From Caenorhabditis elegans (lineage: Eukaryota > Nematoda > Chromadorea > Rhabditida > Rhabditidae), in NCBI RefSeq assembly GCF_000002985.6, contig NC_003281.10:9796001-9860000 (forward strand): a stretch of 64,000 nucleotides of DNA, written 5' to 3'. The notes under the pieces were generated by a model. That model was not told the origin of the DNA, made no database searches, and saw only the letters and a program-made list of their open reading frames with translations. Below are positions 36,259 through 42,311 of this stretch, one piece after another. Positions within the stretch are counted from its first letter, which is position 1. Every line of letters begins with the position of its first letter. The position numbers and the translations under genes were made by a program.

Positions 36259-36858
36259 TTCAACGCATATAAACTACGATGAAAATTCTAAAATCCACGT
36301 CCTCATTCCTACTACTAAATTAATATTATATTTTCTTAAACGTTCCTGTGATATACAGCAATTGTACGTATTTTTTTTTGTTGCTTCCAACGACTTTTAC
36401 AATTCCTGAAAAAAAGTTATTTCCTTTTTCTTCAATTCAAGATTATTCAGAACTGCACAAAATTAAAACGACCACATGACAGAAGGAATCATTTTAATAA
36501 TCATGAATTACAGAAATGATCAAATTTCTTGTCCTTACAAGAAACAGCGCAATTAACTGAAGTGTTCAGAGAAACGTATGGTCCATTCGGCTTGGAATCA
36601 TATAAATGTTCTTAAATTATTAAAAGTAAAATAAATGTTTTATTTACATATGATTAGTGAAATCAGAGCACAAAAGTGTGCAATGAAAAATAAATTTTAT
36701 TTTCTGGAGTACTGTAAGCGGGCACATGGTGTATTGTACGCAGAGTTCTTCGAGTGTTTGCGTATCCACGTTGTTCTCCACGTGGACAAAACGCGCGGCA
36801 CGTTTACTTTCTGAAAATTCGTTTTATTTTTGCATTACTGTCTTCTTAAAAGCTGAAA
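36259..36858. other. Intergenic, phafin 3' flank
   Basis: AT-rich 3' flank followed, near 36710-36800, by GC-richer DNA (GTTGTTCTCCACGTGGACAA, GCGCGGCACG). The latter may be the promoter of the next gene and includes the palindrome TCCACGTGGA. No gene or repeat family recognised. Confidence 0.45.
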
Positions 36859-38473
36859 ATGGCTGCAAACGAAGTGTAAATTTCATAAATTCCTAAGCTT
36901 TTATTCATATATATATATATATATATATTTCATCATGTCCTATTTTTGCAGTGATTCCATGGAACCAGGAGAATTGATGGAAGTGGATACGAGCCAGGAG
37001 CTGGATGAAAACACTTCGGCGAAGGAAACGGACCAGCCGAGTTCGTAATAATGTTACCATTCGAAATAACCTTGTTCAAAAGTTTTCAGAAGATGCTCAA
37101 AATGATCCAGAAATTGTATGCGGCGATAGTAATGAGGTCAAGAAGGAGTCTCCGAGTGTAGAAGAGGATCAGTCAAGTACTGAAACTATGTCTAATGAAT
37201 TTGAAGTGGCCGCTGCAATTCTCGAACAAGAAAACGAAGATTCCGGTCAGAACGCCCCCAGTTTGGGAGAATTGCTGTCTCGGAGTGTGAAGTTAGAAGC
37301 TTTTTTTGTTACTTATTTTAAAAACATCATTTCAGTAATTACCACCCTGAACATTACTCTTCACCACCTCTCATGCGTAAACCCGATTTCCGTTTTCCAA
37401 TCATTAATCCTGGTTTGTAGAAAAACACGTTTACTTAAAAGATATTGTGAATTACAGAGAAAGCTCAAGGAAAACTATTCGTTCTCTATCAGCTGATTAT
37501 TACCGTTCCGGACTCGTTGAAGAAATTTCCTCCGTACACATCAGAAACAGTTTGCTGCCAACTGTGCGGAATCGATTTGATGGGATCAGCTATGTTTGCT
37601 CATCTGATCACTATCCAACATCTTAAGTTATAGAACTGCTTGTTCTCAGAGAATGACGTCGATTTCTGGATTTATAAAGTGAACAGTGTAATCGAGCAGG
37701 CGCCTTCAAATGGTAAAGCTCAGTTTACGTTCTTTTGTTTTACTTTTGATTTCAGCTCTGATCCTACCAGGTTTCAACCCTGATACAAATGTGAACTTCT
37801 CGGAAACGGTCGGCGAATTCATCAATCGATCGAAGGGATTCGTTAAGAAACCGAGTACGATTAAAAAAGTTCCGTTGTTAATGGAAATAATTTAAATAAA
37901 TCAGACCTCGAGCAGATCAAAGCCGTCATTGGTGCAGTGATCGATATTAAGGCAGCTGTTGAATATTCGTCAATGAAAGCGAATAGGCCAAGTAAAAACA
38001 AAGTTAGGAGCAAGAATTCTAATTCAGAGCAAAAGCGAACCGGAAACTTCCTCTCTCAAGTCGTCGAAAATCTCATGACCAAGGTTGACGCGAATATCTT
38101 ATCGAGGAGGGTTGGAAAACTATTCAAGAATCACGTATGTTGCTTTCGAAAGTATTGTAATTTTACTCAATTATTTCAGAATGAGTGCACTTTCTGCAAC
38201 ATAAAATTTATTTCATTTTTTGAAATGTGCCGTCACGTGGGAAGCATTCAACTCAGAATGAAGGTAATTTTAATTGAATGTTTCGCCGTTCTGCCGTCTT
38301 CCAATAATTCTAAATAATTTCAGATTAACCACTTGCGTTATCAAGATGTCCATGTTGGAACTTGGGTGCGTTTTCTGGCTTCGGCAACTCCACAGAAACA
38401 AACAATTGAAGATGTAATTGACGGAGGCTCTTCGAAAAAGGTGCATTCACCTGAAATAATCTATATTGACTAA
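36859..38473 (+). pseudogene. Two-finger C2H2 protein gene with one in-frame TAG
   Basis: Nine exons join in phase: 36859-36875, 36952-37040, 37090-37291, 37336-37412, 37458-37712, 37756-37854, 37905-38134, 38180-38263 and 38324-38473. They total 1203 bp or about 400 codons. All introns are short with GT/AG borders. The only interruption is TAG at 37631-37633, in the middle of exon 5. The N-terminus is acidic (PGELMEVDTSQELDENTSAK). A first zinc finger reads CQLCGIDLMGSAMFAHLITI then QH, ending five codons before the TAG. A second finger, CTFCNIKFISFFEMCRHVGS, has L where the last His is expected. Function unknown. It is either a recent pseudogene, a readthrough gene, or a truncated 190-aa protein. 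The next gene downstream has a similar finger. Confidence 0.6.
36907..36929. repeat. AT microsatellite
   Basis: A run of AT dinucleotides lies in the first intron of the two-finger gene. Confidence 0.8.
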
Positions 38474-38766
38474 TATATAATATTTTATCGTGTTTTATAG
38501 GATCTCAATTCGCTTTTATTAATCTTGTGTCATAGAAATTCCTATGTATTCGTTTCTTTTTCTTGTAAAGTAATTTATTTTTCTTCTATAATATAAACTT
38601 TTTTGGAATTGTATCGTTTATATAATTTCGAATATAGTGTATACTTTACACTTTTTTATATCTTTGATATTTTCTTCCGAAGGAAGCCAGTTTTAAGAAC
38701 TAATATGCTGTACTTACCATTCGTTGTAGGATTTCTGAGAAAACTCATCTCAATTTTTTTAAAAAA

Positions 38767-39194: not shown

Positions 39195-42100
39195 ATGGAG
39201 ATGGAAGACATAGACGACGATATAACTGTGTTCTACACTGACGATCGTGGTACAGTACAGTAGGTTTTCTATTCTTTTATGAAGTTTTAAGTAATTTCAT
39301 TTTTCAGAGGACCATACGGAGCCTCAACTGTGCTTGATTGGTACCAGAAAGGATATTTCTCGGACAATCATCAAATGAGATTCACTGACAATGGACAACG
39401 AATTGGGAATTTATTCACATATGAAACTACATTGGGTGAGATGAAAGCGAGATATGGAGAAGAAGCACCGATTCCGACGAAACTCGAAGATTTTAATTTT
39501 CGTGGATTCTCAATTAAACCGAAATCTAATAAAAGACAACTCGATAGAGATCCACTTAAATTACCAAGGAAAGTGAATCCGAGAGATCTGGAACCAACCG
39601 ATGCCAGAAACAGGAATGGAAATTATGAAAATCGAAATGAATATGGTTATAACTGTGATAGACAAAGTACAAGCGCAGTGGATTCTAGGAACCAATCTGT
39701 ACCGCCCGGTATGTTTTTTTTCAGAAAAGATACTTACCGTATTTCCTCTATTAGTCCGGCAGCCTCTATTAGTCTTGCACCCCTACGGACCAATCGAAAA
39801 TTAGTCTTGCAGCCTCTATTAGTATTGCATGCAAGACTAATAGAGGAAATACGGTGATAGTCTTGCACCCCTATTCCTGCCAGACCAGCAGTATTTTGTG
39901 AAAATAATAATAATTGTTTATTTGTCACAAGAAAGAGCTACACCGGAAGATTAAAAAAAAGTAAATAAAATGATGTGTGGACAAATAAGTAAAATGACCA
40001 GTTGGACCAGCTATAGCCCGGGAGGTCAAGTTGAGGGGAAGAGGGTGTCGAATGGAATAGAGCCTAGGCGCGACGCAAATGCATTTGGAGTTAACAATTG
40101 AGGGAAACGTTTTGCTATTCGATTCCACAACGACAAGTTAACATGTAAAAAAAATTTAGACGGGACACCACAGATAACAAGTAGATAGGGGTGACGAGTA
40201 GAGCGTGAAGCTCGAACAAACGATGATAAGGACGGGAAGTGATACTCGCTTGAAATAATTTTATGGAAGGTTCGGAGGATTTGAAGAACCCGTCTGTGGT
40301 GAGTAGACAATAAATTAAATTGTGAAAGCCTGCTGCTGTATGACGAGTAAGATAAATTGCACCTTTGAAAGACACACTTTGAGAAAAACCGGAGGGGAGA
40401 TTCTAGTTTTTTGGCAAGTTCGGTGGAGTTGGGCGGGAAGAGCTCGCAGCCATATTCGAGTACGGGGCGGATGTAAACATTGAACAGTTTAAAATAGAAT
40501 TCGGGACTTTTAGAGCGGAATGAGCGAAGGATTTGGCGACACTTAAGGAGGGCACTATTAGAAGTCTGATTAATATGATTTACAAATGATAATTTGGTAT
40601 CGACAATGATTCCGAGATCTCTGATAGAATCACGCGGTTTAATTTCAACACTATTTACAAAGTATTTATGACGGGGGTTCTTTTTACCAAAGTGTAATAC
40701 GGCAGTTTTTTGCTCAGCAAGATTTAGACGCCATTAAAAAAAAAAAAAAACTTCAAAAATTTCGCCATTTTTTAGTTAAAATAAATTTTAAAGTGTTCAA
40801 GTAATTGATAAAACAATAGAAAAGCATGTATTTTGCACGATTTAGACTGTTTCAAGCCAAATTTTTGACGATAAATGATCAACTTTACAAAGCTATTGGA
40901 TCTTCGAAAATTAGTCATGCATGCAATACTAATAGAGGAAATACGGTAATTATTTCTGGAAACTAAATAATATTACTTGAGCACTAAATTCTGAGAATGC
41001 CTATTACGCAGCATATTTGATTTTCTCAATTTTCTTTAGTTTTTCGTGCTTTCTCTATGTATTCTTTCAATATTTTACCGATTAATAAATGATTTCCGTA
41101 AATCGACACAAGCGCTACAGTAGTCATTTAAAGAGTTACTGTAGTTTTCGCTCCGAGATATTTTGCGCGTCAAATAATATGTTGCGCAACACGCATTCTC
41201 GGAATTGAGTGTTCCCTTAATAAATAATATTTCAAAATATTTAGAATCGCCCACTAGAACAACAAAAAGAAGCAAGAAAAAGATGTTTGTCTGGAAATTC
41301 GGGACCCGAACCGGGAGAAATAAACACTGATTCGCAAGAAATGTCCGATATGGTACCATATGGACCGGTATTTATAATCATTATTCATTTTCCAGTATTC
41401 TCAAAATTATTACAGGAGCCACCTCCTCCGAAAAAACGAAATGATGAATATGTTCTTCGTTCAAAAGGAAATATTCGATCCAGTGATGAGAAAAGGCTGA
41501 CGGTTGGGAAAAGGAGTCTACCATTTTATTATGGAGATGAAGACAAGAAGAAAACCAGTTTGAAAAGTTAGTGAAATTGGGAAATTGGGAATTTAAAATT
41601 TATATTTTTTGTAAAATTTGGACGTATGTGTGTGCACCTTTAAGGAGTACTGTAATTGAAAACTTTCGTTGCTGAGAAAAACTTTGAAAAAATCTCGTTT
41701 AGGTGATTTCAATTGTTTTATTTTAGTTTTTCTATTTAGTAATACGAAAAACAATGAAAGTTTGAAATTACAGTACTCTTTAAAGGTTCACATGCGTTTG
41801 TAAATACAAACAATTTCGTGTCAAGACCGGGTATCGTATTTTTCGCGCAAAAATCGCAAAATTTTGTATCTGTGTAATATTTTTAATTTTATTCATTTTT
41901 CCAGAAATAATTGCACTCGAGTTCGCTTCAATACTCCGCACGGATTATGTGAAATTGGAGAAACGGCAACGCGATCAACTTCACAACATTTGTAACCAAT
42001 GGGAGCTACCGGTGATTTCTTAAATAAAAATATTTTTTTATTAATAAATGTATTTATAGGATAACTGCAGATTCTGCAAATGTGCTTTAAAATTCGCTCC

Positions 42101-42311
42101 AAATTTCTTGAGCCATGTACTGTCTATTCCACACATTACGAAGAGCATGGATCAATATGACAGACGTTTCACATTTGAAGGAGACTATCGTATGCTTAAA
42201 AACGAAATCGAAAAAGTTAAAACGAATTGTCGGGATGCTCCAAGTCCTCTTCCACCTGCAATGGATCCTGTTGCACCATATCATGTTCGCGATAAATGCA
42301 CACAATCATAA
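39195..42311 (+). CDS. GYF-domain protein with C-terminal C2H2-like zinc finger
   Basis: Six exons: 39195-39259, 39308-39698, 41245-41367, 41416-41566, 41905-42011 and 42060-42311 (1089 bp, 362 aa). GYF domains bind proline-rich peptides; this one is near residues 9-45 with FYTDDRGTVQGPYGASTVLD then WYQKGYF, the family pattern. A charged linker (KEARKRCLSGNSGPEPGEIN, PPPPKKRNDEY) leads to a finger CRFCKCALKFAPNFLSHVLS then IPH, spacing C-x2-C-x12-H-x5-H. The start ATG follows a CAG acceptor by one base. Intron 2 (39699-41244) holds a 1.2-kb repeat element with LINE sequence; the exact donor there is uncertain (TCT/GTACCG keeps frame, the stronger CCCG/GTATGT does not). Cellular role unknown; RNA or splicing contacts are plausible for GYF plus zinc finger but not shown. 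Confidence 0.75.
39736..40947. mobile_element. Composite repeat with ACCGTATTTCCTCTATTAGT termini
   Basis: ACCGTATTTCCTCTATTAGT occurs at 39736-39755; its exact reverse complement is at 39836-39855 and again at 40928-40947. GCATGCAA-type text follows each inner end. The outer copies make 20-bp terminal inverted repeats of a 1.2-kb unit. The inner copy forms a 120-bp hairpin on the left side. Between the hairpin and the right end lies LINE-derived coding sequence, so I read it as a hairpin element into which a LINE fragment was inserted or carried. Confidence 0.65.
39925..40735 (-). pseudogene. LINE (non-LTR retrotransposon) ORF2 3' fragment
   Basis: Reading the minus strand from about 40735, the translation includes LNLAEQKTAVLHFGKKNP, RDLGIIVDTKLSFVNHINQT, LLKCRQILRSFRSKSPEFYF and KLFNVYIRPVLEYGCELFPP. 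This is the conserved C-terminal part of CR1/Jockey-like reverse transcriptases (DLG-x-(I/V)-(V/F)-D-x-x-L and R-x-(V/I)-LEY). Further on, after frameshifts and stops, WNRIAKRFPQLLTPNAFASR matches the typical end of ORF2. The catalytic part is absent; it is a 5'-truncated, degraded copy within the GYF gene intron, on the opposite strand. Confidence 0.8.
41100..41210. repeat. AATCGAC-CGCTACAGTAGTCATTTAAAG repeat
   Basis: AATCGACACAAGCGCTACAG then TAGTCATTTAAAGAGTTACTGTAG and CGAGATATTTTGCGCGTCAA. The same text recurs at 50185-50275 with small changes, so these are copies of one repeat. It lies in the GYF gene intron 2. Confidence 0.75.
41619..41840. repeat. Inverted-repeat hairpin in GYF gene intron
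   Basis: GTGCACCTTTAAGGAGTACTGTAATT at about 41632-41657 pairs with AATTACAGTACTCTTTAAAGG at about 41767-41787. The right part ends GTCAAGACCGGGTATCGTA. Same dispersed family as 2797-3069. Confidence 0.7.

Follow-up and report, generated by a model that had tools for sequence, protein, structure and literature searches.

Several kinds of described system come close to the gene reported here. In C. elegans, strain-specific nonsense alleles place an early stop codon in an otherwise complete gene of one sequenced strain, as presented in the available part of PMC4023591. Acceptor choice in this worm can fall on a weak intron site or on an exonic one, and a role in alternative splicing has been suggested for weak acceptors (PMC2762039, in its accessible sections); in the unc-93(e1500) case of the same sections, a moderate intron acceptor competes with a mutation-derived acceptor inside the following exon, and use was measured. 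Splicing coupled to decay has likewise been described in C. elegans (PMC5563511 and PMC5765348, in the portions available). The efficient context for stop-codon readthrough is UGA CU, and a change of UGA to UAG lowers readthrough, according to the part of PMC4207609 consulted.

The locus described here lies in a window of C. elegans DNA, the whole 64,000-nt stretch that was analysed, which spans 9,796,001-9,860,000 of contig 3 and whose neighbouring genes fit chromosome III. Like the strain-specific alleles it combines a complete gene with an early stop, and like unc-93(e1500) it has a moderate intron acceptor followed by another within the downstream exon. In contrast to both, the stop and the two acceptors belong to the reference itself and are known from the reference sequence alone.

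Gene model and the in-frame TAG

The sequence-only reading had joined nine exons into a zinc-finger gene with one in-frame TAG. Translation of the spliced sequence bore out consistent phases across all joins, giving 401 codons, and the TAG is present where it had been placed. The features of the locus are as follows.

36859..36875, + strand: exon 1 as drawn, 17 nt, doubtful (the phase fits; the free search picked another first exon)
36952..37040, + strand: exon 2, acidic N-terminal part (phase; coding log-odds 0.535 per codon)
37090..37291, + strand: exon 3, acidic N-terminal part (phase; coding log-odds 0.37 per codon)
37336..37412, + strand: exon 4; its phase-1 donor, after 37412, also fits the acceptor at 37650
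37458..37712, + strand: exon 5 (255 nt), entered and left in phase 1, containing finger 1 and the TAG
37556..37621, + strand: zinc finger 1, C-x2-C-x11-H-x5-H, complete 5' of the TAG (signature script; coordinates from the residue span)
37631..37633, + strand: in-frame TAG, codon 187 in the frame of the joined exons
37648..37649, + strand: AG dinucleotide of an acceptor within the exon, GTTCTCAG/AG; its first exon base would be 37650, and donor 37412 fits its phase
37756..37854, + strand: exon 6 (phase-consistent join)
37905..38134, + strand: exon 7 (phase-consistent join)
38180..38263, + strand: exon 8, with the degenerate finger 2 (phase-consistent join; profile searches)
38324..38473, + strand: exon 9 and the terminal TAA (phase-consistent join)

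The joined frame contains two stops, the TAG at codon 187 and the final TAA, compared with about 25 expected in 401 codons from base composition; the other two frames of the same spliced sequence contain 18 and 34. All eight introns of the model have GT-AG borders. As exons can be selected so as to dodge stops, the gene-model search was repeated on shuffled sequence. The real interval 36850-38500 scored 81.4 with no stop and 89.6 with one stop allowed, whereas the best of 150 dinucleotide shuffles reached 32.2 and 37.8, respectively. These searches used codon log-odds trained on 3492 codons from open frames of the window, and splice-site weights that only approximate the consensus of C. elegans. 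The model as a whole therefore stands far above the shuffle maxima (81-90 against 32-38). Allowing one stop raised the score of the real model by 8.2, and since an equal gain was seen in 4 of the 150 shuffles, the gain alone is moderate evidence for a frame that runs through the TAG. The nine-exon locus is a genuine protein-coding gene, previously unstudied. None of the ZK632.x and K11H3.x names in the literature searched matched it; ZK632.9 was ruled out as its identity, being a 62-residue p8 homologue in the available part of PMC13293606.

At the 5' end, an ATG at 36959 lies in exon 2, past the acceptor ending at 36951, and opens the same frame for a 392-residue product. An acceptor (TTTTTGCAG) is found in the 36952-36959 region, seven bases 5' of this ATG. 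It could be a candidate trans-splice site, in which case the 17-nt exon 1 would be unnecessary.

The coding signal differs on the two sides of the TAG. The 57 codons 5' of it score 0.198 log-odds per codon, with -0.061 and 0.011 in the other frames, whereas the 26 exon-5 codons 3' of it score 0.057 and another frame is higher, at 0.189. The claim that the frame continues past the TAG to the donor at 37712 is thus upheld for its openness, with weak coding support; an open run of 26 codons has a chance of about one in five at a stop rate of 0.062 per codon. Likeness between this stretch and the one following finger 2 was not significant (662 of 3000 shuffles as good), and, given the weak coding score as well, ancestral continuity of the frame through the TAG is unproven. 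The lower score after the TAG may stem from the acidic exons 2 and 3 that precede it, so it permits no conclusion about decay. Downstream, 213 codons (639 coding nt) and four introns are intact. The several lesions or splice-site losses that mark a pseudogene are not found, there being one stop and GT-AG at all splice borders. From the lack of a second lesion in these 639 coding nt and four introns, a ceiling of about 0.013-0.039 substitutions per site was obtained for the age of the TAG, a range that assumes neutrality and depends on the indel ratio adopted.

Zinc fingers and relatives of the gene

Finger 1 has the signature C-x2-C-x11..13-H-x3..5-H, as CQLC...H...H in the predicted frame of exon 5, identified by script. 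Among 5000 shuffled versions of exon 5, 4 showed a C2H2 signature in the same frame. The earlier proposal that this finger would survive truncation agrees with its position, complete upstream of the TAG. Finger 2, in exon 8, reads C-x2-C-x12-H and then lacks a His within 3-5 residues, so that it is degenerate; the description as a zinc-finger gene holds for the first finger, and 'two fingers' overstates the gene. The two fingers are not significantly alike (268 of 2000 shuffles did as well), and no internal duplication is therefore claimed.

Searches of Pfam gave no family at the cut-off for the whole protein, finger 1 alone or finger 2 alone. The sole match was PF13894, with E values of 2.6 when the whole protein was searched and 0.031 when finger 2 was searched by itself (15.4 bits, below the cut-off of 27); finger 1 alone returned no family. 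NCBIfam had no family for the two fragments searched, solved structures gave no match up to E 10, and the predicted fold of exon 5 was unusable (mean pLDDT 51). U1/matrin-type C2H2 zinc fingers have five residues between the His residues, in the form H-x-x-T/S-x-x-H, and usually C-x12-H. We take the five-residue His spacing of finger 1 to resemble this type, from which it differs in having C-x11-H instead of the usual twelve and in reaching the cut-off of no Pfam model.

In the C. elegans genome (100,286,401 bases, 7 contigs), exon 5 as DNA and as protein, the joined protein, finger 2 and the finger of the next gene each found their own locus only; since scoring was confined to the top candidates of a permissive first pass, distant relatives may be missed. 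A prokaryote collection contained no relative, a result with no bearing on nematodes. The next gene (39195-42311), also on the + strand, carries a GYF domain (PF02213; the piece from exons 1-2 gave E 7.6e-10) and ends in a finger of the H-x5-H kind that resembles finger 1, with 7 of 2000 anchor-keeping shuffles as good. In both its finger and finger 2, a phase-0 intron lies two codons ahead of the first Cys. It differs from the gene studied here in its GYF domain and in having a model with no internal stop. On these sequence likenesses the next gene is possibly a diverged tandem relative.

About 1.5 kb (39700-41240) interrupts the next gene and includes a minus-strand open frame at 40026-40733, a candidate terminal part of a LINE-type reverse transcriptase. 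A short repeat, built around 'attagtcttgca', recurs in the same interval. The small exons modelled within this interval are doubtful.

Splice routes around the TAG

Removal of the TAG by splicing had been dismissed on the grounds that every GT upstream in exon 5 gives the wrong phase and that donor 37626 is limited to an intron of 23 bp. The former is true for acceptor 37650 only, and the latter gives way to another acceptor, with which 37627-37686 (60 nt) is in phase. Enumeration within exon 5 yielded 33 in-phase, stop-free introns whose excision takes out the TAG: 17 are GT-AG and 16 GC-AG, and they include 37550-37633 (84 nt) and 37594-37686 (93 nt). The summed site scores of these three are -6.54 for 37627-37686, -5.50 for 37594-37686 and, the best, -3.10 for 37550-37633. 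Every intron internal to exon 5 scores below the lowest sum, -1.0, among 49 introns of nine neighbouring gene regions; the latter are modelled, not annotated, with the same splice weights, and having been chosen by the same scoring they are biased upwards. Introns internal to exon 5 are possible but poor.

A route with ordinary sites around the stop-containing segment is predicted by the sequence in the form of 37412 joined to 37650. The exonic acceptor at 37650 scores 1.86, compared with 1.67 for the acceptor that opens exon 5 in the model, and the join is in phase and stop-free, giving 336 residues with the loss of finger 1. As low a score as that of intron 37413-37649, or lower, is found in 16 of the 49 comparison introns; the corresponding figure for the model's own intron is 13 of 49. 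Skipping of exon 5, which has 255 nt and phase 1 on both sides, likewise leaves a stop-free protein, of 315 residues. Two exonic acceptors of this kind (37650 and 38028) occur in the real coding sequence, which together could bypass 105 of the 401 codons, and shuffles contain 1.65 on average. The base at -5 of acceptor 37650 is C, where the model acceptor keeps the U that is the most conserved base at this position of C. elegans acceptors in the available part of PMC4889670. Exclusive use of 37650 would leave the signature of finger 1 and the coding signal around it unexplained, which indicates that finger 1 is translated at present or was until recently.

Origin and consequences of the TAG

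The reading preferred here, with moderate confidence, is that a genuine gene lacking any detectable second copy has recently acquired a nonsense change, which leaves a 186-residue product and probably exposes the mRNA to decay. In its favour, the gene model lies far above the shuffles, finger 1 and the codons before the TAG look coding, finger 1 resembles the finger of the next gene, the introns that would excise the TAG from within exon 5 score poorly, and there is no downstream lesion; against it, acceptor 37650 and exon 5 skipping both avoid the TAG with no mutation, and continuity of the ancestral frame through the TAG is unproven. The sequence-only reading had put a recent nonsense allele forward beside a polymorphism or error, a truncated functional product and readthrough, and that part stands, whereas its case against splicing fails on the in-phase bypasses. 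A young change at codon 187 would have hit an otherwise intact gene. With standard splicing, translation would end at the TAG after 186 residues, comprising the acidic tail and finger 1. Because four introns and more than 600 coding nt follow the stop, the standard-spliced mRNA would be expected to be a target of nonsense-mediated decay, which is the established behaviour of such mRNAs. That the remainder of the gene has not decayed would mean either that the change is young or that a bypass isoform keeps it under selection.

The sequence TATAAA is present at 37673 in exon 5, and AATAAA at 37895-37900 in intron 6. Both are candidate poly(A) signals that could give an early-terminated, short transcript, and one ending ahead of the later introns would spare the short form from decay.

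The rival that comes next, though rather unlikely, holds that the TAG is not a lesion and that tandem 3' splice sites join 37412 either to 37458, for the 186-residue finger-1 form, or to 37650, for the 336-residue form; exon 5 skipping (315 residues) would be a variant, and the TAG would then terminate a short isoform natively or act as a decay switch. Each acceptor keeps the phase, their scores are similar, both products were checked by translation, and intron 37413-37649 falls within the range of the 49 modelled introns. The accessible sections of PMC2762039 report acceptor choice between intron and exon in C. elegans, and those of PMC5563511 and PMC5765348 splicing-coupled decay. However, exonic acceptors are expected by chance at nearly the number seen (1.65 per shuffle and 2 real), the C at -5 of 37650 goes against the conserved U of PMC4889670, so far as that source is available, and the short form, ending upstream of four introns, should be decayed. 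A specific two-product switch is improbable: the acceptors, 192 nt apart and served by one donor, would yield a finger-1 protein from the proximal site and a long protein devoid of finger 1 from the distal one. In such a switch a native TAG, just after finger 1, would stop both halves from ever sharing one polypeptide.

Less likely still is a constitutive intron inside exon 5 that leaves the gene intact. The case for it is that 37627-37686 is in phase, stop-free and of ordinary length, keeps finger 1 in a 380-residue product and removes a stretch of weak coding signal (0.047 per codon), and that 37594-37686 was picked by the free no-stop model search; but none of the 49 modelled introns, an upward-biased set, scores as low as the three examples, and 37594-37686 and 37550-37633 destroy finger 1. 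An error of the reference assembly or a strain-private base at 37631-37633 would need a single base, and is very unlikely in that the C. elegans reference has been resequenced many times. Programmed readthrough, which had been offered as one option and would give a 400-residue two-finger protein, is scarcely credible. It has 213 open codons after the TAG, but most of these fall in later exons, which the two splice bypasses retain too, the finger downstream is degenerate, and the stop context is TAG AAC, with an A directly after the stop, and not the UGA CU of PMC4207609 in its available part.

Both a nonsense change and a splice switch are of already-known kinds. If a splice switch operates, the locus would be a compact case in which one stop codon separates two proteins. 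If the TAG is young, as in the preferred reading of a recent nonsense change, it would represent a datable gene loss in, or private to, the reference worm; a working copy may persist in wild strains.
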